Positions 5,508-20,543 of a DNA stretch of 64,000 bases are shown in pieces (the first letter of the stretch is position 1; each line of letters opens with the position of its first letter). This stretch comes from Micromonospora sp. WMMD812 (GTDB lineage Bacteria > Actinomycetota > Actinomycetes > Mycobacteriales > Micromonosporaceae): positions 3,556,001-3,620,000 of the forward strand of contig NZ_CP114904.1 of assembly GCF_027497215.1 (NCBI RefSeq). Reading direction: 5' to 3'. The translations under genes and the position numbers were made by a program. The notes beneath the pieces were generated by a model. It made no database searches and had not been told where the DNA came from. It saw only the letters and a list, made by a program, of their open reading frames with translations.

Positions 5508-6230
5508 TCAGGACCGGTCGCGCAGCCGCGCCAGCCGCTCGCGTACGCCGTCGAAGTGGGCTTGGACGGCGATGACGGCCGCCTCCTTGTCGCCCGCGAC
5601 CACGGCCTCGTGGATCACCCGGTGGCGGTGCACGACCTCCTCCGGCGACTCGGTCGGCGCGCCGAGGTCCAGCCGCAGCTGGTGGTAGACGTCCCAGAAC
5701 GCGCCGAGCAGCTGGCCGACGAGCGGGTTGCGCAGCGGCAGGTAGAGCACGTCGTGGAAGAGCCGGTCGGTCTCCGGGGAGACCGCCCCGAGGCGCGCCT
5801 CCGCGGCCATCTGGTCCAGCACGTCGACCGCCGCGCTCAGATCGGCCTCGCGGTGCCGCTCGATGAGCTGGATGACCAGCCCGCTCTCCAGCGCTTCCCG
5901 GACCTGCATGAGATAGCCGAGCTGGTGACCACCGCCGGCGGGGGTGATCCGGCCGTGGAAGGCCAGCTCGTCGACCAGCCCGCCGAGGGACATCTGCCCG
6001 ACGAACATGCCGAAGCCGTGCCGGATCTCCACGATGCCCACGGCCTGCAGCGCCTTGAGCGCCTCGCGGACGGAGTTGCGGCTGATGGCGAGTTCCCGCA
6101 TCAGCTCCGACTCGGTGGGTAACGGGTCCCCCACGCCGAGGCCCCGGTCGAGGATCAGTCGTTTGACGGCCTCCCGCGCTTCGGCGGCGCGGCTCGTTCG
6201 AGGGCGGACGGGACGGTCGGCAACGCTCAT
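5508..6230 (-). CDS. FadR-subfamily GntR regulator of the sialic-acid locus (copy 1)
   Basis: 240 residues from ATG 6230, preceded by GGAAGG about 12 nt upstream. The alternative ATG at 6257 lies within the operator-like site, so it is less likely. An N-terminal GntR winged helix (about 15-80) has recognition segment SRNSVREALKALQAVG and wing EIRHGFGMFVG. An FCD ligand-binding domain (about 95-225) carries the metal/ligand residues in DRLFHDVLY, DVYHQL, HRVIHEA and AHFDG. It is divergent from the ABC importer operon, with its own RACRT-CCY-AYGTC site 22 bp upstream. By family and context (compare NanR) it probably senses a sialic-acid breakdown product. A near-twin lies at 16234. Confidence 0.88.
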   Translation of the reverse strand: MSVADRPVRPRTSRAAEAREAVKRLILDRGLGVGDPLPTESELMRELAISRNSVREALKALQAVGIVEIRHGFGMFVGQMSLGGLVDELAFHGRITPAGGGHQLGYLMQVREALESGLVIQLIERHREADLSAAVDVLDQMAAEARLGAVSPETDRLFHDVLYLPLRNPLVGQLLGAFWDVYHQLRLDLGAPTESPEEVVHRHRVIHEAVVAGDKEAAVIAVQAHFDGVRERLARLRDRS

Positions 6231-6252
6231 GGTCAGGCTCAACCTTCCGCTG

Positions 6253-6265
6253 GACATCCTATGAC
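6253..6265. promoter_or_regulatory. Operator-like site a (GntR copy 1)
   Basis: GACATCCTATGAC matches the 13-bp consensus RACRT-CCY-AYGTC except for one base in the right half. It lies 22 bp before the start of the regulator gene, suggesting autoregulation. Confidence 0.6.
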
Positions 6266-6392
6266 TCGCAGGCCGGCCGACGGGTCGTCGACCGAGCCGG
6301 ACGAGGTCGAAACCTCCGGGAAACCTGTCTGACCCATTCCCTTGACCCGGTCGCCACGGCCACTCTAGCCTCCATCCTAACCGGGGAGGTGG

Positions 6393-6412
6393 GATGTGGA
6401 ACGTCCCACGTC
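6393..6412. promoter_or_regulatory. Operator-like site b (ABC importer operon)
   Basis: AACGTCCCACGTC at 6400-6412 fits the consensus fully. A second, weaker palindrome GATGTGGAACGTC (6393-6405) overlaps it. It is centred about 48 bp upstream of the GTG start of the solute-binding protein, where a repressor would cover the promoter. Confidence 0.65.
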
Positions 6413-6453
6413 CTAGCAGTAACGTCAATCACCTCAACTCGGTAGGAGGCACC

Positions 6454-8070
6454 GTGAGCGCCCCGGTATCCCGCGCCCACTACAGCCGCCGAGACTTCCT
6501 GCGCTTCAGTGGGATGCTCGGCGCGGCGGCTGTCGTGACCGCCAACATCTCCGCCTGCCAGTCCGGCCCGGCGTCCACCAGCTCGGTGGGCGCGGGCACC
6601 GACAAGGACCTGGTCACCGCGGTCATCGGCTACGGCAACGACCAGAGCTGGGACCCGACGATGACGGCCTCGGCGTTCTCCATGGCCGCCAACAACCACA
6701 TCTACGAGGGGCTGGTCGAGACCGACCCGGTCAGCCGCGAGCCCTACCCCGCGCTGGGCACCGCGCTGCCCACCGACACCGCGGCCACCACCTGGCGCTT
6801 CACCCTGCGCGAGGGCGCGAAGTGGCACGACGGCCAGCAGGTCACCGTGGACGACGTCCTCTTCACCTTCGACCGGGTGCTCGACAAGTCCACCCTGGTC
6901 AGTTCCTTCTTCCGCTCCTGGCTGAAGGAGGTGAAGCGCGTCGACGACCGGAGTGTGGACCTCGTCTTCCACTTCCCGTTCCCCGACGCCCTGCGCCGCC
7001 TGTCGATCGCCAAGATCATGCCGAAGCACGTGTTCGGCGCCGCCGGTGGCTGGGACGCCGCCAAGGGCGGCAAGGCGGTCGGGTCGGGCCCCTACCGGCT
7101 CACCGCGCACAACCCCAAGTCGAACAGCACCTTCGAGGCCTTCGCCGACTACAACGGGCCCCGCAAGGCGCGGTTCAAGAAGATGAACTGGTTGTCGATC
7201 GTCGACAGCTCCGCCCGGGTCGCGAAGATCTCCGGCGGGTCCGCCGAGGCGCAGATCGCCGACAACATCCCCTACGCCAACATCGACCAGCTCAAGAAGT
7301 CCGGGCTCACCGTCGAGGGCGGCAAGGGCATGAACCACATGTTCCTGATGTTCAACACCGGCGCCAAGCCCTTCGACGACGTGCGGGTCCGGCAGGCGCT
7401 GCTCTACGCCATCGACACGCGGAAGATGATCGACGTGGCGCTCAAGGGCCACGGCAGCGCGTCCACGAGCTTCCTCAACGAGCAGAACCCCTCGTACGCC
7501 AAGGCGAAGACGGTCTACGGCTACGACCCGGCGAAGGCGAAGTCCCTGCTCGCCGCGGCCGGCGTCAGCAACCTGTCGGTCACCCTCATGGCGGTGAACG
7601 TCAGCTGGATCGCCGACTGCCTCCCCACCATCGCCAACTCCTGGAACGCGATCGGCGTCAAGACCACCCTCCAGCCGCAGGACACCAGCGCGCTGTTCAC
7701 CAAGATGGACCAGTCGCAGGACTACCAGGTGGTCGCGGCCGCGTCGAACCCCAACCAGTTCGGCCTCGACGCCGATCTCATCCTCCGCTACAACTACACC
7801 CCCGGCGGCACCTGGATGAAGTACACCAAGTGGGACAGCAGCGCCGAGGCCAAGAGCCTCTTCGCGCTGATGGACCAGGCGACCCGGGAGCCGGACCAGA
7901 CCCGCAAGCTCGCGCTGACGCACCAGTACCTGGACGTCATCGCCGAGCAGGCCGTCCTCTACCCGGTGGTGCACACCGAGCTGATGACCGCCTGGGACCC
8001 GAAGCGGCTCGCCAGCATCCGCCCGCAGGCCTACCCGGGCATCAACCTGCTCCAAGCGGAGCGCGTCTGA
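6454..8070 (+). CDS. Family 5 (dipeptide-type) solute-binding lipoprotein, sialic-acid importer candidate
   Basis: 538 residues from GTG 6454, preceded by GGAGG at 4-nt spacing. The N terminus carries a twin-arginine signal (SRRDFLRF) and a lipobox ending ISAC, so the mature protein is a lipid-anchored receptor exported folded. The rest is SBP_bac_5: DPTMTASAFSMAANNHIYEGL, then TWRFTLREGAKWHDG with VDDVLFTFDRVLD, both family hallmarks. Although named for peptides, this family also serves sialic-acid importers (SatA of Haemophilus ducreyi; SiaE of Corynebacterium glutamicum). The linked sialidases and lyase favour that here. It is first in a five-gene operon. Confidence 0.88.
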   Translation: MSAPVSRAHYSRRDFLRFSGMLGAAAVVTANISACQSGPASTSSVGAGTDKDLVTAVIGYGNDQSWDPTMTASAFSMAANNHIYEGLVETDPVSREPYPALGTALPTDTAATTWRFTLREGAKWHDGQQVTVDDVLFTFDRVLDKSTLVSSFFRSWLKEVKRVDDRSVDLVFHFPFPDALRRLSIAKIMPKHVFGAAGGWDAAKGGKAVGSGPYRLTAHNPKSNSTFEAFADYNGPRKARFKKMNWLSIVDSSARVAKISGGSAEAQIADNIPYANIDQLKKSGLTVEGGKGMNHMFLMFNTGAKPFDDVRVRQALLYAIDTRKMIDVALKGHGSASTSFLNEQNPSYAKAKTVYGYDPAKAKSLLAAAGVSNLSVTLMAVNVSWIADCLPTIANSWNAIGVKTTLQPQDTSALFTKMDQSQDYQVVAAASNPNQFGLDADLILRYNYTPGGTWMKYTKWDSSAEAKSLFALMDQATREPDQTRKLALTHQYLDVIAEQAVLYPVVHTELMTAWDPKRLASIRPQAYPGINLLQAERV

Positions 8071-8155
8071 CGGCGGGGCGGGCGGCGACCGGAGCGTCGC
8101 CGCCCGCCCGGCCGCACCTCCGGCCCGGCCGTCCCACCCGCCGAGGAGTCACACC

Positions 8156-9115
8156 GTGGCAGTCATCGCCAGAATGCTGGTCCGCCGCCTGCTCATCCTG
8201 ATCCCGCTCCTGCTGGGCGTGATCCTGTTCGTCTTCATCGTCATGCGGTTCTCGGAGAACAAGCCCGAGTACGCGTACTTCCAGGGGGCGAACCCCACGC
8301 CGGAACAGATCCACCAGTTCCAACTGGAGAACGGCCTCCTGGATCCGCTGCCGGTCCGCTACGTCCGGTTCGTGGGCGACCTCGCGCAGGGCGACATGGG
8401 CACCAGCGTCCTGACCAAGTCTCCCGTGCTGGACTCGGTGCTCACCGCGCTGCCGCTGACCCTGCAGCTGACCTTCCTCGGCCTGCTGATCGCCGTGGTC
8501 ACCGCCCTGGTCTTCGGCGTCACCGCGGCGATCTTCCGGGACCGCTGGCCGGACCAGCTGATCCGGGTGTTGTCGCTGACGGGTGTCGCCGCACCGTCGT
8601 TCTGGCTCGCCCTGCTGATGATCCAGTACCTCGCCGTCGACGCCGGCCTCTTCCCCACCGGCGGATACATCAACCCGGCCGACTCCTTCACCGGCTGGTT
8701 GCGGTCGCTGACCCTCCCGGCCCTGGCCCTGTCGCTGCCCGTCGCGGCTCAGCTCACCCGGATCGTCCGGACGTCGATGGTGGAGGAGCTGGACAAGGAC
8801 TACGTACGCACCGCGATCGGCAGCGGCCTGCCGCCGGTCGTCGTGGTCGGCCGCAACGTGCTGCGCAACGCGCTGATCAATCCGCTCACCGTGCTCGGCC
8901 TGCGGGTCGGCTACCTCCTCGGCGGCGCGGTGGTCATCGAGACGATCTTCTCCCTCCCCGGCATGGGGAAGCTGATGATCGACGGCGTGACCAACGGCGA
9001 CCCGGCCGTCGTGCAAGGCGTCGTGCTGACCATCGCCACCGGCTTCGTCGTGGTCAACCTCGTCGTCGACGTCCTCTACCTACTGGTCAACCCACGCCTG
9101 AGGAGTGCCGGCTGA
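8156..9115 (+). CDS. ABC transporter permease (DppB type)
   Basis: 319 residues, GTG start after GAGGAG. It has an N-terminal helix (about 8-28), an extracytoplasmic segment, then five helices of the BPD_transp_1 domain. The EAA-type coupling loop is near DYVRTAIGSGLPPVVVVGRN (about 218-237), followed by ALINPLTVLGLR and GGAVVIETIFSLPGMGKL, all DppB hallmarks. It follows the binding-protein gene by 85 bp. Its TGA overlaps the ATG of the next gene (TGATG), so synthesis of the two membrane subunits is coupled. Confidence 0.92.
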   Translation: MAVIARMLVRRLLILIPLLLGVILFVFIVMRFSENKPEYAYFQGANPTPEQIHQFQLENGLLDPLPVRYVRFVGDLAQGDMGTSVLTKSPVLDSVLTALPLTLQLTFLGLLIAVVTALVFGVTAAIFRDRWPDQLIRVLSLTGVAAPSFWLALLMIQYLAVDAGLFPTGGYINPADSFTGWLRSLTLPALALSLPVAAQLTRIVRTSMVEELDKDYVRTAIGSGLPPVVVVGRNVLRNALINPLTVLGLRVGYLLGGAVVIETIFSLPGMGKLMIDGVTNGDPAVVQGVVLTIATGFVVVNLVVDVLYLLVNPRLRSAG

Positions 9116-11079
9116 TGCGTCGACGACTCACCGAACGGCTGGCCCGACCCGGCATCGGATTCCGCCGGCTGCCGCCCCTGTCCTGGGTCGCGCTCGGGGT
9201 CCTCGTGGTGGTCGCCCTCGCCGCCCTGCTCGCCCCGATCATCGCGCCGCACTCCCCGCTGACCCAGCACTCCGCCGGCGGCGGCCCCTCCGCCACCCAC
9301 TGGATGGGCCTGGACAGCGCCAGCCGGGACATCTTCAGCCGCCTGCTGCACGGCGCCCGGTGGTCACTGCTCATCGGGCTCGGCGCGACCGGCCTGGCGC
9401 TGCTGGCCGGGTCGGTGATCGGGGCCGTCGCGGCCACCTCCCGCAAGTGGGTGGACGAAGGGGTCATGCGCGTCCTGGACGTGATCATGGCCTTCCCCGG
9501 CATCGCGCTGGCGGCCGTCCTGGTTGCGGTGTTCGGCGGCGGGGTCGGCGTCCTGGTCGCCGCGATCGGGTTCCTCAACACCCCGCCCGTCGCCCGCATC
9601 GTCCGGGCGAACGTGCTCGCCCAGTACGGCGAGGACTACGTCGCCGCCGAGAAGACCATCGGCGCCCGTACGCCGTACATCCTCGTCCGGCACGTGGCGG
9701 TCAACTGCGCCGCGCCCATCCTGGTCTTCTGCACCGTCATGGTCGCCGACGCGATCGTGTTCGAGGCGTCGCTGTCCTTCATCGGCGCGGGCGTCCGCCC
9801 ACCGGACCCCTCCTGGGGCAGTGTCATCGCCGATGGCAAGAACCTGGTGCTGCTCGGCGGGTGGTGGGCCACCGTCTTCCCGGGCCTGCTGATCCTGCTC
9901 ACCGTGCTGGCCCTGAACATCCTGTCCGAGGGCATCTCCGACGCCTGGGCCACACCGGCCGCCCGCCGCCCGGCGACCCGGCGCGCCGGCGACGTCGACA
10001 CGATCGAGCAGGCCCGACCCGGATCGGGCGAGGTCACCGAACTGCCCGGGCTCGCCGAAGCCGCCCGCCGGCTCGCCGAACGGGCCCGCCCCCTGCCCGA
10101 CGGCCCGCCGATCCTCGAGGTGGACAACCTCGCCATCGGCTTCGACGGCCGGCATGACGGCGTGGACGTCGTCGACGGGATCTCCTTCGACGTCCGACCC
10201 GGAGAAGTGCTCGGGCTCGTCGGGGAATCCGGCTGCGGCAAGTCCCTGACCGCCCTGACCGTCATGGGCCTGCAACCGCGCGAGGCCCGGATCCGCGGCG
10301 CCATCCGGTTCGCCGGCGCCGATCTGCTCCGCATGCCCCGCACGGCGCGACGGCGGCTCCTCGGCCACGACCTGGCCATGATCTACCAGGACGCGCTCTC
10401 GTCGCTCAACCCGGCGATGACCGTCCGCGCCCAGCTCAAGCAGCTCGTCCGGCGGGGCGGCCGGCGTACCGCGACGGAGCTGCTCGAACTGGTCGGGCTC
10501 GACCCGGACCGCACGCTCTCCGCCTACCCGCACGAACTCTCCGGCGGCCAGCGGCAACGGGTCCTCATCGCGATGGCCCTGTCCCGGGATCCCAAGCTCA
10601 TCATCGCCGACGAACCGACCACCGCGCTGGACGTCACGGTGCAGGCACAGGTGATCCAGCTGCTGCTGCGGCTCCGCGCGGAACTCGGCTTCGCGCTGAT
10701 CCTGGTCTCGCACGACCTCGCCCTGGTCGCCGACGTGACCGACCGGGTCGTGGTGATGTACGGCGGGCAGATCGTCGAGACCGGCGTGACGACCGAACTG
10801 GTGGGCGCACCCGCCCACCACTACGCCCGGGGGCTGCTCGGTTCGGTGCTGTCCCTGGAATCCGGGGCGGCCCGGCTGTCGCAGATCCGCGGCGTCGTCC
10901 CGTCCCCCGCCGATTTCCCGGCCGGCTGCCGGTTCGCCGACCGCTGCCCCATGGCGACCGACGTGTGCCACGCCGTCGCCCCCGACCTGGTCGGCGACCA
11001 ACGTCGGCATGCGGCGGCCTGCCACCACCCGGCGATCACGCTCACCCAGCCGCTCACGGCGGGAACGGAGGCCCGGTGA
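9115..11079 (+). CDS. ABC transporter permease-ATPase fusion (DppC-DppD)
   Basis: 654 residues, about twice the normal length of either part. Residues 1-275 are a DppC-type permease: WMGLDSASRDIFSRLLHGARWSLLIG, EDYVAAEKTIGAR and a final helix ending LNILSEGISDAW. A linker of about 50 residues leads to an ATPase at about 330-640: Walker A GESGCGKS, Q-loop YQDALSSLNPAMT, signature LSGGQRQR, Walker B LIIADEPTTALD, switch VSHDLALV and the C-terminal oligopeptide-transporter cysteine region CRFADRCPMATDVC. The reading frame is intact, so this is a true fusion. SiaG-like proteins of corynebacterial sialic-acid importers are, to my recollection, similarly fused; that deserves a check. Confidence 0.92.
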   Translation: MRRRLTERLARPGIGFRRLPPLSWVALGVLVVVALAALLAPIIAPHSPLTQHSAGGGPSATHWMGLDSASRDIFSRLLHGARWSLLIGLGATGLALLAGSVIGAVAATSRKWVDEGVMRVLDVIMAFPGIALAAVLVAVFGGGVGVLVAAIGFLNTPPVARIVRANVLAQYGEDYVAAEKTIGARTPYILVRHVAVNCAAPILVFCTVMVADAIVFEASLSFIGAGVRPPDPSWGSVIADGKNLVLLGGWWATVFPGLLILLTVLALNILSEGISDAWATPAARRPATRRAGDVDTIEQARPGSGEVTELPGLAEAARRLAERARPLPDGPPILEVDNLAIGFDGRHDGVDVVDGISFDVRPGEVLGLVGESGCGKSLTALTVMGLQPREARIRGAIRFAGADLLRMPRTARRRLLGHDLAMIYQDALSSLNPAMTVRAQLKQLVRRGGRRTATELLELVGLDPDRTLSAYPHELSGGQRQRVLIAMALSRDPKLIIADEPTTALDVTVQAQVIQLLLRLRAELGFALILVSHDLALVADVTDRVVVMYGGQIVETGVTTELVGAPAHHYARGLLGSVLSLESGAARLSQIRGVVPSPADFPAGCRFADRCPMATDVCHAVAPDLVGDQRRHAAACHHPAITLTQPLTAGTEAR

Positions 11080-12107
11080 ACCCGACCGGATCGGCAGGTG
11101 CCCCCCTGCTGGAACTCGCCGACGTGCACGTCGTCCACCGGGCCCGTTCGGGCGGCATCTTCGCCCGCGACCGGGTGTACGCGCTGACCGGCGCCGATCT
11201 CACCGTCGCGCCCGGGGAGACGGTCGGGATCGTGGGCGAGTCGGGCTGCGGCAAGTCGACGCTGGCCCGCGTGCTGGTCGCGCTGCAGCGCCCCACCGCC
11301 GGGACCGTCCGCTTCCGGGGCCAGGACGTGTGGGCGACACCGGAGTCGCGGCGCCGCCGGACGATCGGCGCCACGACCGGCATGGTCTTCCAGGACCCGT
11401 CGACCGCGTTGAACCGCCGCCTGTCCGTCCGGCAGATCCTGCGCGACCCGCTGGATGTGCACCGGCGCGGCACCGCGGGCGACCGGGAGCGGCGGGTCCG
11501 TGAGCTGCTCGACCTCGTCGGACTGCCGGCCAGCTCCGCCGACGTGCTGCCCGGCCAGCTCTCCGGCGGGCAGCGGCAGCGGGTCGCCATCGCCCGGGCC
11601 CTGGCGCTGGAACCCGACCTGGTGGTGGCCGACGAGCCGACGAGCGCGCTGGACGTGTCGGTGCGGGCCCAGATCCTCAACCTGCTGCTGGACCTCAAGG
11701 ACCAGCTCGGGCTCGCCATGGTCTTCGTCTCGCACGACATCCAGACGGTACGGCGGATGAGCGACCGGGTGGTCACCATGTACCTCGGGCGGATCGTGGA
11801 GCAGGCCCCCGCCCGGTCCGTGCCCGGGCAGGCACGGCACCCGTACACGCGGGCGCTGTTCTCCGCGACCCCGGGCCTGCTCTCGCCGATCGACCCGATC
11901 CCGCTGTCCGGCCTCGTCCCCTCGGCGACCCGGCCGCCGTCCGGATGCCCGTTCCGCACCCGATGTTGGAAGGCGGACGACACCTGCGCCCGTGAGCTTC
12001 CCGCGGCGCAGGGCGGGACGGACGGGCACCTGTTCCGCTGTCACCACCCCGTGCCGGTCGGCGCCACCGACCTCGAACTGATCAGCCAAGCACAGGAGCG
12101 TCCATGA
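11076..12107 (+). CDS. ABC transporter ATPase (DppF type)
   Basis: 343 residues from GTG 11076, which overlaps the previous stop (GTGA). Walker A is GESGCGKST, Q-loop VFQDPSTALNRRLSV, signature LSGGQRQR, Walker B LVVADEPTSALD and H-loop VSHDIQTV. The C-terminal tail CPFRTRCWKADDTC is the oligo_HPY cysteine cluster typical of peptide/nickel-type importers. It pairs with the ATPase half of the fused subunit to make the NBD dimer. Its stop overlaps the ATG of the lyase gene (ATGA). Confidence 0.93.
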   Translation: MNPTGSAGAPLLELADVHVVHRARSGGIFARDRVYALTGADLTVAPGETVGIVGESGCGKSTLARVLVALQRPTAGTVRFRGQDVWATPESRRRRTIGATTGMVFQDPSTALNRRLSVRQILRDPLDVHRRGTAGDRERRVRELLDLVGLPASSADVLPGQLSGGQRQRVAIARALALEPDLVVADEPTSALDVSVRAQILNLLLDLKDQLGLAMVFVSHDIQTVRRMSDRVVTMYLGRIVEQAPARSVPGQARHPYTRALFSATPGLLSPIDPIPLSGLVPSATRPPSGCPFRTRCWKADDTCARELPAAQGGTDGHLFRCHHPVPVGATDLELISQAQERP

Positions 12108-13036
12108 CCATCGCCGCCGCACTCACCGGCGTCATCCCCCCGGTGTGCACCCCGCTGACCCCCGACTTCGAGGTGGACACCCGTTCGCTCACCCGGCTCG
12201 TCGACCACCAGCTCCGGGGCGGAGTGGACGCGCTGTTCGTGCTCGGCTCCTCGTCCGAGGTGGCCTTCCTGCCCGACGGGCACCGGCGGACCGTGTTGGA
12301 CACGGTGGTCAATCACGTCGCGGGTCAGGTGCCGGTGCTCGCCGGCGTCATCGACATGACCACCCCACGGGTGCTGGACCACGCCCGGGTCGCCGCGCAG
12401 GCCGGGGCGGCGGCGCTCGTCGCCACCGCGCCGTTCTACGCCCGCACCCACCCGGTGGAGATCGACACGCACTTCCGGGCCATCGCCGAGCGGACCGGCC
12501 TGCCGCTGTACGCGTACGACCTGCCGGTGTCGGTGCACACCAAGCTCGGCGCGGAACTGGTGCTCGGGCTGGCCGCGGACGGGGTGCTGGCCGGTGTCAA
12601 GGACTCCAGCGGCGACGACGCCGGCATGCGGGGGCTGCTGCTCGGCCGGCGGGACCGGCCGGACCTCACCGGATTCAGCGTGCTGACCGGTTCGGAGCTC
12701 ACCGTCGACTCGGCGTTGTGGATGGGCGCCGACGGTGTCGTGCCCGGTCTGGGCAATGTCGACCCGGACGGCTACGTGCGGCTGTACCAGTCCGCGGCCA
12801 AGGGCGACTGGGTGGCGGCGCGCACGGAGCAGGAGCGGCTGTTCCGGATGTTCGAGCTGGTGTTCGTGGGAGCGCACCGGATGGGGATGAGCTCGTCGGC
12901 GCTCGGCGCGTTCAAGGCGGCGCTGCACCTGCGGGGGATCATCGACCATCCGACCACCGCCCGGCCGCAGGTGCCGCTGAACAGCGAGGAGACCGCCCGG
13001 GTCGGCCGGTACCTGGCCGACGCCGGGCTGCTCTGA
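12104..13036 (+). CDS. DapA-family aldolase, probable N-acetylneuraminate lyase
   Basis: 310 residues with a class I aldolase TIM barrel. The Schiff-base lysine is in AGVKDSSGD (about residue 166). The catalytic tyrosine is in YAYDLP, where NanA and dihydrodipicolinate synthase have YNIP/YNVP. The phosphate/carboxylate loop, usually G-S-T-G-E, reads LGSSSEV, so the substrate may not be the classical one. As the last gene of the importer operon, it would cleave the imported sialic acid to pyruvate and N-acetylmannosamine in the cytosol. Alternatives within the family are 4-hydroxy-tetrahydrodipicolinate synthase (unlikely here) and 2-keto-3-deoxy-sugar aldolase. No nanE or nanK gene is nearby. 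Confidence 0.82.
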   Translation: MTIAAALTGVIPPVCTPLTPDFEVDTRSLTRLVDHQLRGGVDALFVLGSSSEVAFLPDGHRRTVLDTVVNHVAGQVPVLAGVIDMTTPRVLDHARVAAQAGAAALVATAPFYARTHPVEIDTHFRAIAERTGLPLYAYDLPVSVHTKLGAELVLGLAADGVLAGVKDSSGDDAGMRGLLLGRRDRPDLTGFSVLTGSELTVDSALWMGADGVVPGLGNVDPDGYVRLYQSAAKGDWVAARTEQERLFRMFELVFVGAHRMGMSSSALGAFKAALHLRGIIDHPTTARPQVPLNSEETARVGRYLADAGLL

Positions 13037-13039
13037 GCG

Positions 13040-14032
13040 TCAGGGGGTCGAGGGGCCGCCGGCGGGCACCCGCGTGCCGAGCCAGCGCAGCTGCTCCACC
13101 CGCTGGAAGGCGGCTCCTCCCTCGTGCCGGTTGTACGGCCAGACCACGATGTCCTTGTCCGCGCTGGCGCAGTGGTGGTAAGCGGCGAAGACGGTCGACG
13201 GCGGGCAGACCGCGTCCATCAGCGCCACCGACATCAGCACCGGCGCCGTGATCCGGGGGGCGAAGTTCACCCCGTCGACGTACCCGAGGGTGTGGAACAC
13301 CCGGTCCACCTCGCCGCGGCGCGTCTGGAGGTACGACCCGAGTTCGGCGTACGGTCCGGCGTCGGTGATGTCCACCGCCCGGCGGAAGTGGCACAGGAAC
13401 GGCACGTCGGCGAGCACCCCGGCCAGGCCGTCGACGAGCCCCGCCGCGGCGAGCGCGATCCCGCCGCCCTGGCTGCCGCCAGCCACCACGATGCGGGTCG
13501 GGTCGACCTGCGGGAGGAGCCGGGCGGTCTCGACGGCCCGCACCGCGTCGGCGAAGACGCGGCGGTAGTAGTAGCTGCCGGGGTCGGTGACGCCCCGGGT
13601 GAGGAAGCCGTTGGCCTGGGGTGACCCGGACGGGTCCGGGTCGGGGGTGTCCCCGGTCAACGAGCCGGCGGCGCCCTGGCCCCGGGTGTCCATGACGAGG
13701 TGGGCGTACCCGGCGGCGCTCCAGAAGAGCCAGTCGTGCGGCAGGCCGCGGCCGTTGCCGTAGCCGATGTACTCGACGACGCAGGGCAGCGGCCCGGACC
13801 GGTGGCGGGGCAGCAGCAGCCAGGCGCGTACCGGCTGGCCGGCGTAGCCGGCGAAGGTGACGTCGTACACCTCCACCGTGGCGAGTCCCGCGTCGTACGG
13901 GTCGAGACGGGCCGGCCAGGCGGCGGCCGCGGCCTCGCCGATCGTCGCGGTCCAGAAATCGTCGAAGTCGTCGGGTTCGGTCCGGGCGGGCCGGTAGTCG
14001 CGCAGCGTGTCGAGTGGCCAGTCGGTGAGCAC
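13040..14032 (-). CDS. AXE1-family acetyl esterase (cephalosporin-C deacetylase type)
   Basis: 330 residues from GTG 14032, chosen for the GGGAGG seven bases upstream. It is an alpha/beta hydrolase with nucleophile elbow GGSQGGGIAL (serine about 180), preceded by DTRGQG and followed by DVPFLCHFRRAVD; the acid and base are near ALMDAVCPP and NRHEGG. AXE1 enzymes remove O-acetyl groups from xylan or small sugars. There is no signal peptide, so it acts in the cytosol. In this setting it could deacetylate O-acetylated sialic acids, which lyases handle poorly; that is inference. Its stop lies only 3 bp from the stop of the convergent lyase gene. Confidence 0.85.
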   Translation of the reverse strand: MLTDWPLDTLRDYRPARTEPDDFDDFWTATIGEAAAAAWPARLDPYDAGLATVEVYDVTFAGYAGQPVRAWLLLPRHRSGPLPCVVEYIGYGNGRGLPHDWLFWSAAGYAHLVMDTRGQGAAGSLTGDTPDPDPSGSPQANGFLTRGVTDPGSYYYRRVFADAVRAVETARLLPQVDPTRIVVAGGSQGGGIALAAAGLVDGLAGVLADVPFLCHFRRAVDITDAGPYAELGSYLQTRRGEVDRVFHTLGYVDGVNFAPRITAPVLMSVALMDAVCPPSTVFAAYHHCASADKDIVVWPYNRHEGGAAFQRVEQLRWLGTRVPAGGPSTP

Positions 14033-14065
14033 AGCGTTCCTCCCTGATCGGTTCGTCCTCCGGCG

Positions 14066-14101
14066 CACCGCGGCGCCCACCGTCTGGTGGGCGCCGCGGT
14101 G
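14066..14101 (-). terminator. Terminator hairpin after sialidase 1
   Basis: A perfect 16-bp stem (CACCGCGGCGCCCACC with its complement) and a GTCT loop, between the stop of the leftward sialidase and the start of the esterase. It separates the two into independent transcripts. Confidence 0.75.
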
Positions 14102-14119
14102 CCGGTCGGCGGCAGCGGG

Positions 14120-16084
14120 TCAGCGCACGGTCTCCAGCGGCAGCCGCAGGCCGAGTTGGCCGCCGATCGGCAGGTTCCGCTCGCGGATCAGCTCGAGTTC
14201 GGTGGGCGACAGCGCCCGGCGGTACAGGCGGACCTCGTCGAGCGTGCCGCGGAAGCGGTCCACGCCGTCCACCCGCTGCCCGAGGTGGATGCCCTGCACA
14301 CCGAACTCCTTACCCGCGGTGACGGATCCGGGCGGCACCGCCGCCGCGGCCACCTCGGCACCGTCGACCCGCAGAACCAGCCGGCCGTCGACCCGTTGCA
14401 GCACCACATGGTGCCACTGTCCGTCGTTGTACGCCTGCGGCGAGGAGACCGATACGTTGAAGCGATCCACCATGATCAGTGCGCGGATCCGGTTGCTGGC
14501 CGGCTCCGCCCGCAGCCACAGCTGAGGGGTCGTGCCGCCACCGGTGCGGTACGCCCACATGATGGCGTGCGAGCCCGTCGTGTCCGCGTACCGGATCCAG
14601 GTCGCGAACGTGAAGTCCCCACCGCCGAGGTCGATCGAGCGGTCGAACGGCACCTCGACCCGGTCGTCCACCCCGTCCAGGGCCAGCCCGTCGCCGAAGC
14701 GGCCCGCCGTCGGCTGCGCCCCGCCGCGGACGTACGCCGGGTTGCGATGGTGCGAGATGTCGGGCGTGGTCGGTCCCGGCGCCGGCGGGCCCGGGATCCC
14801 CGGCGGCGTACCGTTCGGGGTCGCCAGGTAGGCCTCGTTGAACCGGGCGTACCGGATGGTCTCGTACGGGCTCGCCTGCCCCGCCTCGTACAGCAGCGCC
14901 GCCTCGTCGCCGTCCAGCCGGACGAGGTCCGAGTACGCGGTCGGGCCCCAGTGGAAGACCTTGCCCTCGTCCCAGTCCTGCCAGCGCCGGCCCTCGTCGA
15001 AGGAGGAACGAATCGTCATCACCTCCCGCGCCACGGGGTGGGCGGGGGACGAGAGCAGGATCCGGTTCCGGCGCTGGCCGGCGTCGGTCGCGCCGAACCG
15101 CAGCAGCGACGCCTGCACGTCCGGTATCTCCAGGTCGGGGATGGTCCGGAAGGGCGCGTCGAACGTCTGCCCGCCGTCGCTGCTGAGCGCGTACGCCCGG
15201 TGCCCCGGGTCGGTGCCCCGTTCCCGGGCCAGCGCGTAGATCCGCCCGTCCGTCCGCTCCACGACGGTCACCTCCTGGGCGATCACCGAGCCGTCGTCCC
15301 GGGACGTCTCCGCGCCGATCTGCCAGGTCAGCCCTCCGTCGTCGCTGTAGAGCAGGTGCGTGCCGTAGACGTGCGGGCCCACCCCGTCGTAGCTCTCGAA
15401 GCTGGCCCCGACCACCAGCCGCCCGGCGTGCGGGCCACGCTGGAGCTGGATGCCGTGCATCGGCCCGGTGGCGTACCAGAAGTTCCACTCCGGGCGCTTG
15501 GCCTCGGTCAACTCCCGTACCGGCGACCAGGTCGCGCCGTTGTCCTCGCTGGTGACCAGGTAGGGGTCGCGGTCGCAGCCGTTCGGGCACGGGGCGGGGC
15601 CGTTGCTCGTGCCCACCACCACGACCCGTCCGGTGCGCTCGTCGACGATCGGCACCGGGTTGCCCCGGGTCCGGCCGTCGCCCTGGACGACCACCTGGAG
15701 CGGACCCCAGGTGCGCCCGCCGTCGGCGGACCGGCGCAGCACCAGGTCGATGTCCCCGTCGTCGCCGCAGTCGTCGACCCGGCCCTCGGCGAACGCCAGG
15801 ACCATGCCGTTCGCCGCCCGGACGACTGCCGGGATCCGGAAGCAGGCGTATCCGAACTGGCCCTGCCCGTAGAGCACCTGTTCGTCGACGAACGGGGCGG
15901 CACCGGTCGCCCCGGGCCGTGCATCGGCCGCGCCTGCCCGCACGGCGCCCGCGTCGGCCGCGTCCGCCGCCTGCGGCGCGGTCAGCGTGCCGGCGAGCAG
16001 GCCGGCCACGGCCAGCAGGACGCCGGCGCGGCGGCGGGGCCCACGCCAGCCGGCGGGGTGCCGTGTTCGATGCCCTTCACTCAT
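14120..16084 (-). CDS. Secreted exo-alpha-sialidase (GH33) with C-terminal LamG domain
   Basis: 654 residues. A signal peptide with RRRAG and a hydrophobic run ends near residue 42. The GH33 six-bladed propeller (about 65-420) has the FRIP motif with the first active-site arginine (CFRIPAVV) and five Asp-box-like repeats ([44 protein letters not shown]). The acid/base environment FAEGR follows FRIP. Residues about 470-640 form a LamG/concanavalin-like domain (FTFATWIRY ... QWHHVVLQ ... [12 protein letters not shown]) that probably binds glycans. It would release terminal sialic acid outside the cell. Two tandem operator-like sites lie upstream. Confidence 0.9.
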
Positions 16085-16117
16085 GTCGCGCCCTTCAGAT
16101 CGACGGTGATGGCGTCG

Positions 16118-16144
16118 GTCATCCTATGTGGGACGTGGGATGTC
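16118..16144. promoter_or_regulatory. Tandem operator-like sites c (sialidase 1)
   Basis: The main site is GACGTGGGATGTC at 16132-16144; its complement GACATCCCACGTC fits the consensus fully. A second copy, GTCATCCTATGTG at 16118-16130, matches 11 of 13 positions one base away. They lie 34-60 bp upstream of the sialidase start. Confidence 0.65.
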
Positions 16145-16233
16145 CGGAAGGGGCAGTTCACCGCTCGGCCACCGGGTGGGCGCGCTTCGCCTCGGCGGGG
16201 CAGCCGAGGGCCCGCCACCCTCGACCGGAGAGA

Positions 16234-16932
16234 TCAGGCCGGCTGTTGACCCGCCTCGGCGAGCCACCGCTCGGCCCGGGCGATCCTGGCCTTGACGTCG
16301 CGGAAGTGCCGGCGCATCGCCTCCTGGGCGCCGCTCCCGTCGCGGTTGCGCAGCGCCTCGACGATCCGCCGGTGATTGGCGACGATGTCCGCCGCCCGGT
16401 CCTCGGGCGGCCCGAGCGCCGGCTCCACCTCGTGGTAGACGTCCCAGAACAGCCCGATCAACTGGAGCACCAACTCGTTGTCACAGGACTCGTAGAGCAA
16501 CGAGTGGAAGGCCCGGTCCGCCTCCTTGTCCCTGGCCATCGCCGTGACCAGGGCGTCCAGGGCCGCGAGGCGGGCCTCGCTGACGTCGAGCGCCACCGAG
16601 GCGATGAGCCCCGTCTCCAGGATCTCGCGAACGGCCACCAGATCGTGCAGCGCCCGTACGCCGTGCCCGGGCCGGGTACGCACCCGGAACGTCAGCGACG
16701 GGGTGAGGACGTCCAGCGGCGCATGCCCCACGAACGTGCCGAAGCCGTGCCGGATCTCCACGATGCCCAGCGCCTGCAGGGCGCGGATCGCCTCCCGCAC
16801 GCTGTTGCGGCTGGCCCCTAGCAGATCCATCAACTGCGGCTCGGTCGGCATCGGGGCGCCGGGCGCGAGTTGACGCTCGTGAATGAGGGCGACGATGCGG
16901 TCCTGCAGGGTCTCCCTCGTGCGTGCCCGCAT
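16234..16932 (-). CDS. FadR-subfamily GntR regulator (copy 2)
   Basis: 232 residues from ATG 16932, picked because GGGAGG lies 4 bases upstream; an in-frame GTG at 16956 is less likely. The recognition segment SRNSVREAIRALQALG and wing EIRHGFGTFVG are almost identical to those of the regulator at 5508-6230, so both should bind the same operator. The FCD domain (about 90-220) shows DRAFHSLLY, DVYHEV and RRHFRD, with the histidine/asparagine ligand set of the family. It lies between sialidase 1 and the divergent GH42 gene, with a consensus operator 44 bp before its start. It probably co-regulates the locus with its paralogue. Confidence 0.88.
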   Translation of the reverse strand: MRARTRETLQDRIVALIHERQLAPGAPMPTEPQLMDLLGASRNSVREAIRALQALGIVEIRHGFGTFVGHAPLDVLTPSLTFRVRTRPGHGVRALHDLVAVREILETGLIASVALDVSEARLAALDALVTAMARDKEADRAFHSLLYESCDNELVLQLIGLFWDVYHEVEPALGPPEDRAADIVANHRRIVEALRNRDGSGAQEAMRRHFRDVKARIARAERWLAEAGQQPA

Positions 16933-16975
16933 GCTGCCTCCCACACTCCGCGCCACCAGGTCTTCTCACGCTCCG

Positions 16976-16988
16976 AACATCCCACGTC
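16976..16988. promoter_or_regulatory. Operator-like site d (GntR copy 2)
   Basis: AACATCCCACGTC matches RACRT-CCY-AYGTC at every position. It is 44 bp upstream of the regulator start. Confidence 0.65.
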
Positions 16989-17083
16989 ATGGCCCTGACG
17001 AGGCGGGGGCGGTGGGCCAGAATTTACACCCGCCCCGCCTTGACGGTCATCACGCCCCCACCTAGTGTGCCCGGTTGACGGAT

Positions 17084-17096
17084 GACATCCCATGTC
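17084..17096. promoter_or_regulatory. Operator-like site e (GH42 beta-galactosidase)
   Basis: GACATCCCATGTC is a perfect 5-3-5 palindrome and the best copy of the motif. It lies 60 bp upstream of the GH42 start, in the divergent region shared with GntR copy 2. Confidence 0.68.
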
Positions 17097-17155
17097 CGCC
17101 TCGCCCGAATCGGGGGCATCTGGCGGCACCGCGCGGCGACGAGGAGTGGAGCAGG

Positions 17156-19147
17156 ATGACCATGCCCCGAATCATGTTCGGCGGGGACTACAACCCGGAA
17201 CAGTGGCCGGAGGACGTCTGGGCCGAGGACATGAAGCTGATGGTGGAGGCGGGCGTCTCGCTGGTCTCGGTGGGCATCTTCGCGTGGGCCCAGGTGGAGC
17301 CCCGGCCCGGCGAGTACGACTTCGGCTGGTTCGACCGGGTGCTGGACCACCTGGCGGAGGCGGGCATCGGCGCGAGCCTGGCCACCATGACCGCCTCGCC
17401 GCCGCCCTGGTTGTCCCGCCGGCACCCCGAGGTGCTGCCCAGCAGGGCGGACGGCGTGACGCTCTGGCCCGGCGCCCGCCAGCACTACTGCCCGTCCAGT
17501 CCGGTCTACCGGGAACACGCGGCCCGGCTGGTCGAACAGGTCGCCACCCGCTACGGCGACCACCCGGCCCTGCGGCTGTGGCACATCGGCAACGAGTACG
17601 GCTGCCATGTGCGGGCCTGCTACTGCGACGTCTCCGCGGATGACTTCCGGCGCTGGCTGCGCGAACGCCACGGCGACGTCGACACGCTCAACGCCGCCTG
17701 GTCCACCGCCTTCTGGTCCCAGCGTTACGACGACTGGTCGGAGGTCCTGCCGCCGCGCACCGCGCCCACCTTCGGCAACCCCGCCCACAAGCTCGACTTC
17801 GCCCGCTTCAGCAACGACGCGATCCTCGCCTGCTACACCGTGGAACGCGACATCCTGCGCCGGCACACCCCGGACGTCCCGGTGACCACGAACTTCACCG
17901 GCCTCGTGCACAAGCCGATCGACTCCTTCCGCTGGGCCGCCGAGCAGGACGTCGTCAGCCTGGACAGTTATCCCGACCCGTACGACCCGCGTACGCACGT
18001 CGACGCCGGGTTCGGCTACGACCTCGTCCGCTCGGCCCGTCAGGGGCAGCCCTGGCTGCTCATGGAGCAGGCGCCGAGCGCGGTCAACTGGCGGGAGCGC
18101 AACGCCCCCAAGCCACCCGGGGTGATGCGGCTGTGGAGCTGGCAGGCGGTCGCCCACGGCGCCGACGGGGTGCTGTTCTTCCAGTGGCGGCAGGCGGCGG
18201 GCGGCGCCGAGAAGTTCCATTCGGCGATGCTGCCGAACGCCGGGGCGCACACCCGGACCCACCGCGAGGTACGCGACCTCGGCGCCGAGCTCGCGGCGAC
18301 GGCCGAGCTGGCCGGCACCCGGGTACGGGCCGAGGTGGCCCTGCTGCACGACTGGCCCAACTGGTGGGCGGTGGAGGGTGAGGCGCACCCGGCCCCGCTG
18401 GACCTCCTGGCGGCCCACCGGGCGCACTACGCGCCGCTGTTCGACGCCCACGTCACCTGCGACGTCGTGCCACCCGACGCCGACCTGGCCGGATATCGCC
18501 TGGTGATCGTGCCCAACCTGTACCTGCTGTCGGACGCGACGGCCGCCGCGCTCCGCGAGCACGTGGACCGCGGCGGGACCCTGCTCGTGTCCTACTTCAC
18601 GGGTGTCGTCGACGGCACCGAGCGGCTTCATCCGGGGGGCGCGCCGGGGCCGTTGCGGGACGTGCTCGGACTGCGGGTGGAGGAGTTCTGGCCCCTGCCC
18701 GCCGGGGGCACCATCGGCCTGGACCTCGACGGTCGGCAGGGTCGGGGTCTGGAATGGTCGGAATGGGTCGAGCCGGCGGGGGCCCAGGTGGCGGGGAGGT
18801 TCACCGAGGGCGAGCTGGCCGGCCGGCCCGCGGTGCTGCGGCACCGCTACGGCGCCGGGACCGCCTGGTACCTGGCGACCCGCCCCGACCCGGCGCTGAT
18901 GCGCACCGTGCTCGACCAGGTCCGCGCGGAGGCCGGAGTCGCACCGGTCCTGCCGGACCTGCCCGACGGCGTGCAGGCCGTCCGCCGCCACGGCGACGAC
19001 CGGTCGTACCTCTTCCTGCTCAACCACGGCGACACGCAGGCGACGGTGGCGCTCCCGTCCCCGGCCGTCGACCTGCTCGGTGACGCGGACCGACCGACCG
19101 AGCGCGTCACCCTGCCGCCGCGCGGCGTCGCCGTCCTGCGCTCCTGA
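17156..19147 (+). CDS. GH42 beta-galactosidase
   Basis: 663 residues, the usual length for GH42. The ATG at 17156 follows GGAG at about 5 nt. The (beta/alpha)8 barrel opens with FGGDYNPEQWPEDVW, the family signature. The acid/base glutamate is in HIGNEYGCH (about residue 147) and the nucleophile in LLMEQAPSAVNW (about residue 304). A trimerisation domain follows (about 390-590), then a small beta-sandwich. No signal peptide, so it hydrolyses imported beta-galactosides in the cytosol. Sialic acid usually caps galactose, so this step fits the removal of sialic acid by the linked sialidases. It carries the regulon's best operator. Confidence 0.92.
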   Translation: MTMPRIMFGGDYNPEQWPEDVWAEDMKLMVEAGVSLVSVGIFAWAQVEPRPGEYDFGWFDRVLDHLAEAGIGASLATMTASPPPWLSRRHPEVLPSRADGVTLWPGARQHYCPSSPVYREHAARLVEQVATRYGDHPALRLWHIGNEYGCHVRACYCDVSADDFRRWLRERHGDVDTLNAAWSTAFWSQRYDDWSEVLPPRTAPTFGNPAHKLDFARFSNDAILACYTVERDILRRHTPDVPVTTNFTGLVHKPIDSFRWAAEQDVVSLDSYPDPYDPRTHVDAGFGYDLVRSARQGQPWLLMEQAPSAVNWRERNAPKPPGVMRLWSWQAVAHGADGVLFFQWRQAAGGAEKFHSAMLPNAGAHTRTHREVRDLGAELAATAELAGTRVRAEVALLHDWPNWWAVEGEAHPAPLDLLAAHRAHYAPLFDAHVTCDVVPPDADLAGYRLVIVPNLYLLSDATAAALREHVDRGGTLLVSYFTGVVDGTERLHPGGAPGPLRDVLGLRVEEFWPLPAGGTIGLDLDGRQGRGLEWSEWVEPAGAQVAGRFTEGELAGRPAVLRHRYGAGTAWYLATRPDPALMRTVLDQVRAEAGVAPVLPDLPDGVQAVRRHGDDRSYLFLLNHGDTQATVALPSPAVDLLGDADRPTERVTLPPRGVAVLRS

Positions 19148-19178
19148 CCGGACCAGCCGGCGCCGCTGCCGGCCGGGA

Positions 19179-19213
19179 GGGGTGCGCCGCGGCCGGCGGC
19201 CGCGGCGCACCCC
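19179..19213. terminator. Bidirectional terminator between GH42 and sialidase 2
   Basis: A perfect 16-bp stem (GGGGTGCGCCGCGGCC with its complement) and a 3-base loop lie between two convergent stops. Confidence 0.78.
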
Positions 19214-19218
19214 CGCGC

Positions 19219-20448
19219 TCACCCGCGCGGCTTCAGTTCACCGGTCGGGATCCGGCGGAAGGTGATGGTCTCGTACGGGCCGAAGTTGCCCGTCTCGTAG
19301 AGCACACCGACCGTACGCGCGTCCAGTTGCACCAGGTCGGAGTAGCCGGCGGGAAGGCCGGACAGCGCCAGGGCCGGCGACCAGGTGGCGCCCTGGTCCG
19401 TGCTGATCCGCAGCGTCATCGCGGCCCGGCTGGCCGGGTCGGCGGGCCCGGAGAAGAGCAGTGGCGCCTTCGGGCCGGTCAACTGCAGGACGCTCGCCTG
19501 CACGACCGGCCCCACCAGCGTCGCCTGTGGCCGGTACGGCAGCACCAGCGACTGGCCGCCGTCGGCGCTGTAGGTGTCGGCCCGGTTCCCCGGCCCGCTG
19601 CCGTTGTGCTCCCGGGTGTTCAGGTAGAGCCGGCCGTCCGGCAGCTGCGCGGCCGTGGACTCGTTGACGTTCACGTAGCCGTCCGGGTTGTCGTCGACCG
19701 CCCCGATCTGCCAGTTCGCGCCGTCGTCGTCGCTGTAGAGCAGGTGGCCGCCGTAGTACTTGGCCTCGGTGCCGAGATCGGGCGAGCCGGCCGGCGGCGC
19801 GATCGAGTGGTTGGCGGGCACCACCAGCCGGCCCCGGTGCGCCGTGCCGGCCAGGCGCAGGGCGTGGCCCGGCCCCGTCGCGTACCACCGCCAGTTCTCC
19901 GCCTTCGCCTGCCCGGTGATCTCCTGAGGAGCGGACCAGGTGGCTCCCTCGTCGTCGCTGTGCTGGACGAAGACCCGGCGGCTCTGCTCGGCCGTGACCT
20001 CGCCGCGCATGATCTCGGCCTCCGACGCGTCGGCGGCGTTCACGGTGGACAACAGCACGAGACGGCCGCTCGCCGTCAGCACCGGGGCGGGGTTGCCGGC
20101 GGTGTCCGGCCCGCGGTCGTGCACCATCTGCAGCGGCCCCCAGGTGCACCCGCCGTCCGTGGACCGCTTCAGGACGAGATCGATGTTGCCGGCGTCGCTC
20201 AACGAGCCGTGCCGCCCTTCCGCGAAGGCGAGCAGGACCCCGGACCGGGCCGTGACCACGGCGGGGATCCGGAATCCGGTGTAGCCCTCGGCGCCGGAGG
20301 TGAACGGCACGGACGTGCCGCACCGGCCACCGGCCGCGGCCGGCTCCGCCGTGGCTTGTTCCGCCGTGGCCGGTGGGGCGCCGAGGGTGAGGGATGCGGC
20401 GAGTGCGACAGCGCCAAGGGCGATCATCGAACGGGGTGACCGGGACAT
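19219..20448 (-). CDS. Secreted exo-alpha-sialidase (GH33), catalytic domain only
   Basis: 409 residues from ATG 20448 (AGAGGTG upstream). The signal peptide (MSRSPRSMIALGAVALAASL region) ends near ATAEQA. The propeller shows the FRIP arginine motif (GFRIPAVV), FAEGR, and Asp boxes STDGGCTWG, SDDEGATWS, SDDDGANWQ and STDQGATWS. Unlike sialidase 1 it has no lectin domain. Two secreted enzymes of differing build suggest different linkages or insoluble versus soluble substrates. An operator-like site with one mismatch lies upstream (20531-20543), placing it in the same regulon. Confidence 0.9.
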   Translation of the reverse strand: MSRSPRSMIALGAVALAASLTLGAPPATAEQATAEPAAAGGRCGTSVPFTSGAEGYTGFRIPAVVTARSGVLLAFAEGRHGSLSDAGNIDLVLKRSTDGGCTWGPLQMVHDRGPDTAGNPAPVLTASGRLVLLSTVNAADASEAEIMRGEVTAEQSRRVFVQHSDDEGATWSAPQEITGQAKAENWRWYATGPGHALRLAGTAHRGRLVVPANHSIAPPAGSPDLGTEAKYYGGHLLYSDDDGANWQIGAVDDNPDGYVNVNESTAAQLPDGRLYLNTREHNGSGPGNRADTYSADGGQSLVLPYRPQATLVGPVVQASVLQLTGPKAPLLFSGPADPASRAAMTLRISTDQGATWSPALALSGLPAGYSDLVQLDARTVGVLYETGNFGPYETITFRRIPTGELKPRG

Positions 20449-20530
20449 GCGCACCTCTTTCGTGGTGGTGGGGTGGCCCTTCGTGGAGCCGGCGCGTCCT
20501 CGGAGACGCGCCTGGTCGGGCATGAGGTAG

Positions 20531-20543
20531 GACGTCCTCTGTC
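20531..20543. promoter_or_regulatory. Operator-like site f (sialidase 2)
   Basis: GACGTCCTCTGTC differs from the consensus at a single position (C for A at the start of the right half). It is about 83 bp upstream of the sialidase 2 start. This is the weakest site apart from the 11-of-13 tandem copy at 16118. Confidence 0.5.

Follow-up and report, generated by a model that had tools for sequence, protein, structure and literature searches.

The DNA analysed here is a stretch of 64,000 nucleotides from Micromonospora sp. WMMD812 (contig NZ_CP114904.1, positions 3,556,001 to 3,620,000), hereafter called the window. It carries a gene cluster that, judged from its sequence, appears to serve sialic acid scavenging, both by cutting sialic acid from sugar chains and by importing it. 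Promoters of this cluster share a short palindromic operator, RACRT-N3-AYGTY with CCY at the centre, and two regulators of the FadR type, GntR1 and GntR2, are encoded among them. The genes, with window coordinates, are as follows.

5508..6230, minus strand: GntR1, FadR-type (FCD) regulator of 240 amino acids (Pfam GntR and FCD, scanned on the longer open reading frame 5508-6425)
6454..8070, plus strand: solute-binding protein (SBP) of the SBP_bac_5 family with a Tat signal (domain scan, gene finder)
8156..9115, plus strand: ATP-binding cassette (ABC) permease (domain scan)
9115..11079, plus strand: fused ABC permease and ATPase, a single importer protein of 654 amino acids (domain scan)
11076..12107, plus strand: second ABC ATPase (scanned as 10965-12104; start by gene finder)
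12104..13036, plus strand: aldolase of the dihydrodipicolinate synthase (DHDPS) family, probable N-acetylneuraminate lyase (NanA) (domain scan, PDB match)
6454-13036, plus strand: the importer operon as a whole (SBP, permease, fused permease-ATPase, ATPase), with the aldolase as its last gene
13040..14080, minus strand: acetyl xylan esterase family protein (AXE1), downstream of sialidase 1 (domain scan)
14120..16084, minus strand: sialidase 1, BNR_2 plus laminin-G (domain scan; start judged from sequence)
16234..16932, minus strand: GntR2, FadR-type (FCD) regulator of 232 amino acids (domain scan; own clade, support 98/99)
17156..19147, plus strand: GH42 beta-galactosidase (domain scan, gene finder)
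19219..20448, minus strand: sialidase 2, BNR_2 (domain scan, PDB comparison; start judged from sequence)

The best PDB matches of the SBP are 5za4, 5z99, and 5yyb (about 356 bits), which we take to be SatA of Haemophilus ducreyi. The aldolase is best matched by 5c54 (304 bits), named dihydrodipicolinate synthase/N-acetylneuraminate lyase and presumably NanA of Corynebacterium glutamicum. Since the dapA model of NCBIfam (127.8 bits) outscores the lyase models for this protein, and all of them lie under their own cut-offs, NanA is used only as a probable name. Sialidase 1 has its best PDB match in 1eur, named SIALIDASE and assumed here to be the Micromonospora viridifaciens enzyme, and the AXE1 protein is possibly a sialate O-acetylesterase.

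The operator copies associated with these genes are listed below.

6253..6265, plus strand: GntR1 operator GACATCCTATGAC, one mismatch (T12 to A)
6386..6412, plus strand: array of the ABC operon in 7-bp steps, at 6386 (two mismatches), 6393 (one mismatch, centre open), and 6400 (exact)
16118..16144, minus strand: sialidase 1 pair 14 bp apart, 16132 (exact) and 16118 (11/13)
16976..16988, plus strand: GntR2 operator AACATCCCACGTC, exact
17077..17096, plus strand: GH42 operator, exact palindrome GACATCCCATGTC at 17084 with an overlapping partial copy at 17077 (two mismatches)
20524..20543, minus strand: sialidase 2 operator, overlapping one-mismatch palindromes at 20524 and 20531, 7 bp apart

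Exact matches to RACRTCCYAYGTC occur at four places in the window and nowhere else in it, namely 6400 (+), 16132 (-), 16976 (+), and 17084 (+), as compared with a mean of 0.02 and a maximum of 1 in 100 dinucleotide shuffles. Copies with one mismatch lie at 6253 and 20531, and one with two mismatches (11/13) lies at 16118. The looser pattern RACRTNNNAYGTC, which leaves the centre open, shows no enrichment in the window when up to two mismatches are allowed (172 found vs 233 expected); therefore, much of the signal lies in the CCY centre. When the starts preferred on the basis of ribosome-binding sites and the gene finder are used (GntR1 6230, SBP 6454, sialidase 1 16084, GntR2 16932, GH42 17156, sialidase 2 20448), the sites precede them by 22, 41, 47, 43, 59, and 82 bp, respectively. 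This agrees with the 22-83 bp given in the first-pass annotation, whose operator coordinates were all confirmed by a re-scan of the window. Further copies came to light that it did not contain: the one-mismatch palindrome at 20524 (GACGTCCTACCTC on the minus strand, retained in the related loci L070 and L110), the partial palindromes at 6386, 6393, and 17077, and two distant copies at genome positions 1232576 and 1232276.

Conservation was examined in the best 80 of 236 confirmed loci, obtained by scanning GTDB contigs with a GntR2-family alignment, and sites were assigned as intergenic or coding by the analysis's own gene finder. The 43 loci that bear a sialidase span 16 genera and contain 93 exact intergenic and 5 exact coding sites; 200 column-permuted patterns gave means of 0.04 (maximum 2) intergenic and 0.30 (maximum 15) coding. 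An intergenic exact site is present in 41 of the 43, and none in L098 and L109. The 34 sialidase-free loci from L112 upward have two exact sites, both in L126 (Amycolatopsis). In Nonomuraea sp. NEAU-A123, two scaffolds (L079 and L080) carry a regulator-sialidase locus with identical operator flanks, which represents either a real duplication or an assembly artefact.

A gene-by-gene count was made in 47 of the 80 loci (L070-L111, L114, L115, L121, L126, and L128), with a site of at most one mismatch sought within -300..+60; it leaves out 33 Streptomyces loci, genes below 40% identity, and genes too near the locus end. Such a site is present before GntR2 in 45 of 47 cases, SBP in 17 of 17, GntR1 in 11 of 11, sialidase 1 in 28 of 30, GH42 in 11 of 17, and sialidase 2 in 9 of 15, and before the DHDPS-family gene in 3 of 19, AXE1 in 1 of 4, and the third sialidase type (described below) in 0 of 5. 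For the first six of these genes, the median distance from site to predicted start is 22-50 bp, with a range of -5 to 246. The change to A12 seen at the GntR1 promoter of the window recurs upstream of 4 of the 11 GntR1 genes (L070, L072, L088, and L096) and in L110, and this recurrent T12 to A change may mark a deliberately weak site.

The whole genome of the host (7.13 Mb) contains eight exact RACRTCCYAYGTC matches, four of them inside the window. A fifth (G000:C1:1232576) lies 2.3 Mb from the window, upstream of a third BNR_2 sialidase, at 144 or 180 bp from its start depending on the start chosen. The one-mismatch copy at 1232276 overlaps the start of a divergent esterase gene. In the coordinates of the excised locus L033, this unlinked pair is:

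5879-8281, minus strand: two-domain GDSL esterase, one-mismatch operator
8770-10656, plus strand: third sialidase, divergent partner of the GDSL esterase, exact operator

According to PF13088, the genome encodes exactly three sialidases, and all three have a site (two exact, and one mismatch for sialidase 2). Another genome of the genus, G022, encodes homologues of both regulators and has six exact matches, all within 21.5 kb and all upstream of orthologues (third sialidase, GntR2, SBP, sialidase 1, GH42, and sialidase 2). The GDSL/third-sialidase pair is kept in G022, where it directly adjoins the GntR pair (L152), and the copy at the GDSL start is kept there with one mismatch. The other 35 same-genus genomes sampled have 34 exact matches together, or 0.97 each, against which the eight of the host genome have a Poisson P(>=8) of 8e-6. 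A generic site of the FadR family was considered and rejected, as 0 of 7 other FCD genes in the genome lie within 2 kb of a RACRTNNNAYGTY site.

A chance origin of the operator is excluded by the shuffles, the permuted patterns, and the genome-level counts. The first-pass annotation had proposed that one operator joins these promoters and had named, among three findings that would speak against it, a random frequency genome-wide and absence from orthologous promoters. The window shuffles and the same-genus counts do not show a random frequency, and the sites are present at orthologous promoters in many genera. The operator shared by these promoters is real and conserved in many actinobacteria, and it extends to the unlinked third sialidase and, weakly, to the divergent GDSL esterase.

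The copies are arranged in a fixed register. Of the 101 distinct intergenic sites with an exact match to RACRTCCYAYGTY, 28 have a second palindrome (at most one mismatch in RACRTNNNAYGTY) at +7, 18 at -7, 26 at +14, and 2 at -14, and none has one at any other offset within 22 bp; shuffled flanks gave 0.19, 1.25, 0.02, and 0.02, respectively. The 7-bp register is found in 17 genus-by-gene combinations and the 14-bp register in 6, and 14-bp pairs at sialidase 1 promoters also occur in Nonomuraea, Hamadaea, Dactylosporangium, Streptosporangium, and Virgisporangium. The window arrays (6386/6393/6400, 16118/16132, 17077/17084, and 20524/20531) fit this register. Therefore, the natural unit seems to be half-sites every 7 bp and not a lone 13-mer. 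A plain direct-repeat operator was rejected because the site logo shows C3 and G11 as invariant and R4 and Y10 as variable, which fits inverted half-sites; the logo sites were picked by pattern and so give a description and not a proof, and the 7-bp register makes both descriptions overlap.

Both regulators score above the cut-offs of PF00392 (GntR winged-helix) and PF07729 (FCD), and they are 47% identical to each other. Their near-identical recognition helices had been put forward in the first-pass annotation. The stretch SRNSVREA, which we take to be the recognition helix, is in fact identical in the two, but the argument is weak because homologues in Streptomyces share SRNSVRE without exact sites. 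The best NCBIfam match of both is NanR PRK03837, with 86.7 bits for GntR1 and 91.3 bits for GntR2; since these fall below the 260-bit cut-off, the model name was not assigned. Compared with the PDB, a GntR2-family profile matches 6az6 (E 1e-25), 2di3 (6e-18), and, as third-best, E. coli NanR 6on4 (3e-16). A tree of 38 proteins (from 24 of the 80 loci and four others) places GntR1 and GntR2 in separate clades, with support of 98/98 and 98/99, respectively, and both clades include Micromonosporaceae and Streptosporangiaceae. Therefore, the GntR pair is old. The Corynebacterium-like rows of the tree have long branches and their placement is unsure.

The operator of the window looks, by its sequence, like a variant of the NanR operator known in C. 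glutamicum and not like an unknown operator class. NanR of C. glutamicum is reportedly a repressor with N-acetylmannosamine-6-phosphate or N-acetylglucosamine-6-phosphate as effectors, and its operator is said to be the 21-bp motif AMGYMTGATGTCWKATGTMTA. Even when 3 mismatches are allowed, this motif is not found in the window, and a shortened form of it has no match in 397 genomes from the order. In a small-genome genus, 127 of 242 genomes searched with the regulator alignment have a homologue at E <= 1e-15. Thirty small-genome (Corynebacterium-like) loci have 15 matches to RACRTCNNAYGTM, in 13 of the loci, vs a mean of 0.40 and a maximum of 6 in 200 permutations, and the CCY-centred form in none; the looser RACRTNNNAYGTM has 16 matches in them vs a permutation mean of 1.64, a figure weakened by one permutation that reached 20. 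Eight longer stretches from such loci were examined for the palindrome and the 21-bp motif. The C. glutamicum-like genome G480 has the full motif in two gaps, one preceding the lyase and the other the importer; in each, the motif overlaps a single RACRTNNNAYGTY palindrome together with a weaker copy, RAYRTCNNAYGTM, which follows 7 bp later. G450 and G625 share this arrangement, and G454 has it in one gap out of two. The 21-bp motif is lacking from G432, G292, and G433, which do have palindromes, and G461 has no site. The idea that the operator is undescribed in actinobacteria thus fails, since its 13-bp frame with a weaker copy at 7 bp is that of the C. glutamicum NanR operator as reported.

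The likeness extends to the genes. In both systems a FadR/FCD-type regulator stands beside an SBP_bac_5-like importer and a DHDPS-family lyase, and the RACRT-N3-AYGTY palindrome (RACRTNNNAYGTY) has a further copy staggered by 7 bp. The importer and lyase proteins are 36-56% identical to those of the window (53% for the permease at 8156..9115 and 53.5% for the aldolase). The counterpart of the fused permease-ATPase (L187:11343-13346) is of similar size, about 668 amino acids. In contrast, the centre of the operator is ATG or CTG there and CCY in the window group, and the window has two regulators and a regulon that also takes in sialidases and GH42. The identity of GntR1 to the C. glutamicum-like regulator, which lies on a long tree branch, is only 32.5%.

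In the open-licence literature searched, no operator was found named for the sialic acid genes of Micromonospora, Nonomuraea, or their relatives. A survey of nan clusters in Actinomycetia, free-living actinomycetes included, reports fadR in 226 of 234 clusters and, as in the window, a FadR-type regulator, an ABC transporter, and sometimes sialidases clustered together; it names the regulator class only, and the words 'operator' and 'GntR' are absent from its main text (Li and Huang 2022, PMC8754123).

The reading preferred here, at a probability of roughly 0.86, is that of a NanR-type sialoregulon with a CCY-centred operator, on which dimers of two anciently duplicated FadR-family repressors would pack cooperatively until released by sialic acid or one of its breakdown products. 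GntR1 and GntR2 would both read the inverted half-sites around the CCY centre. Without sialic acid, they would sit 22-82 bp upstream of the starts and block transcription of the importer and lyase operon (SatABCD/SiaEFGI-like), the two sialidases, GH42, and both regulator genes, with the third, unlinked sialidase under the same control. At several promoters, two to four half-sites in 7-bp register might hold two or three dimers side by side in a cooperative manner. The sialidases would release N-acetylneuraminic acid (Neu5Ac), and after its entry Neu5Ac or a breakdown product may lower the affinity for DNA, leading to joint induction.

The packing model draws on the analogy of E. coli NanR, also a FadR-family repressor of sialic acid genes with dimers packed on closely spaced repeats; there, three dimers occupy (GGTATA)3, each offset from the next by roughly half a turn, and Neu5Ac weakens the binding (PMC8012715). 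The E. coli system differs in its DNA sequence, in its use of direct repeats, and in that its cooperativity requires a 32-residue N-terminal extension (PMC8012715). The operator offers a signature by which sialic acid scavenging can be searched for in free-living soil actinobacteria, and it ties unlinked sialidases into one predicted regulon. How NanR-type dimers pack on tightly spaced repeats also becomes testable in a second lineage, and the GntR pair would be a natural example of two paralogous repressors retained side by side, with a common operator, in many genera. A further step is only tentative: the operator may be a modular array with half-sites every 7 bp (three steps being 21 bp, or two helical turns), on which the two duplicated repressors assemble, perhaps as mixed dimer stacks whose tuning depends on how many half-sites a given promoter has and on conserved weak positions, A12 of the GntR1 promoter among them. 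In that case, E. coli, Corynebacterium, and soil actinomycetes would all pack NanR dimers closely on sub-turn repeats, despite differing DNA sequences.

Several observations weigh against this reading or limit it. The locus counts are not independent, because the loci were fetched by GntR2 homology and are related (16 of the 43 are Nonomuraea). Sites are missing before two GntR2-type genes (L099 and L109), 6 of 15 sialidase 2 genes, 6 of 17 GH42 genes, 3 of 4 AXE1 genes, 16 of 19 DHDPS-family genes, and all 5 genes of the third sialidase type, several of these site-less genes looking operon-internal; several GntR1 genes have no site other than the array that lies between them and the importer operon. 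Weaker one-mismatch sites occur at other spacings further out, at 18 bp (L074 and L095) and 25 bp (L076 and others). The remaining three of the eight exact genome sites lie 198 bp before a predicted GH15 start (one) and inside predicted open reading frames (two), and the copy at the GDSL start coincides with the likely ribosome-binding site and start codon of that gene and may be a coincidence. A NanE cluster of the genome has no operator at up to one mismatch in the 19 kb scanned. The Streptomyces homologues show 44-49% identity and at least 32 of 33 loci have SRNSVRE, yet the exact operator is found in 0 of the 33, with a lone one-mismatch match in L137; the helix sequence alone therefore does not fix the operator.

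It is possible, though doubtful, that only one of the two regulators, most likely GntR2, reads the operator and that GntR1 is a regulon member with another target or role. Most Nonomuraea loci and Kribbella L083 and L092 have the motif and a GntR2-type gene with no GntR1-type gene in the stretch examined, and the nearest site of GntR1 itself is degenerate at position 12 in the window and in five relatives. Against this, each of the 11 GntR1 genes counted has a site, though often one that belongs to the array it has in common with the importer. Genome G040 has a GntR1-type gene adjoining the importer, with a one-mismatch site between the two, but also a second homologue on another contig.

That a different, unlinked transcription factor binds the motif, with the GntR genes as passengers, is very improbable. 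The Streptomyces homologues with the same helix stretch and no exact sites would suit such a factor; however, sites precede the GntR2-type gene itself in nearly all loci counted, same-genus genomes without a close regulator homologue have near one exact site each, and the operator frame fits the one reported for C. glutamicum NanR. Activation instead of repression, or both together, is unlikely. In its favour, the distance of the sites from the starts varies, and a second site lies 136-241 bp upstream at some of the GntR2 promoters of Nonomuraea; C. glutamicum NanR, however, is said to be a repressor. E. coli NanR, of the same family, is a repressor (PMC8012715).

A few candidates and neighbouring observations can be added. 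The lectin gene of ricin-B type at window positions 20684-21415 adjoins sialidase 2, with no operator link shown. The GH15 (glucoamylase/trehalase-like) gene has its exact operator at L032:7878-7890 (genome 1117877); it was rejected as a regulon member, G022 having no exact site outside the sialic cluster. The search for an operator proper to Streptomyces by alignment of upstream regions (32 loci) yielded only an unrelated block, TTGGCCGGATACCCTCT, which the upstream regions of the 33 Streptomyces loci (within L112-L149) share, many of them together with a tRNA-like block. The NanE cluster, rejected as a target for want of a site in the scanned region, places a protein of the N-acetylmannosamine-6-phosphate epimerase family near a LacI-type regulator, an FAD oxidoreductase, and an SBP_bac_1 protein (L156:1818-9200), and is perhaps a second amino-sugar pathway. 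The 11 exact matches of genome G054 were rejected as a regulon, as the four examined adjoin transposase genes and no homologue of a window gene. In that genome the perfect 13-mer GACATCCCATGTC is repeated in inverted pairs (L150:2261/8459 and L151:2588/7099; 6.2 and 4.5 kb apart) next to IS110- and ISL3-type transposase genes, and these copies look like part of a repeated mobile element.

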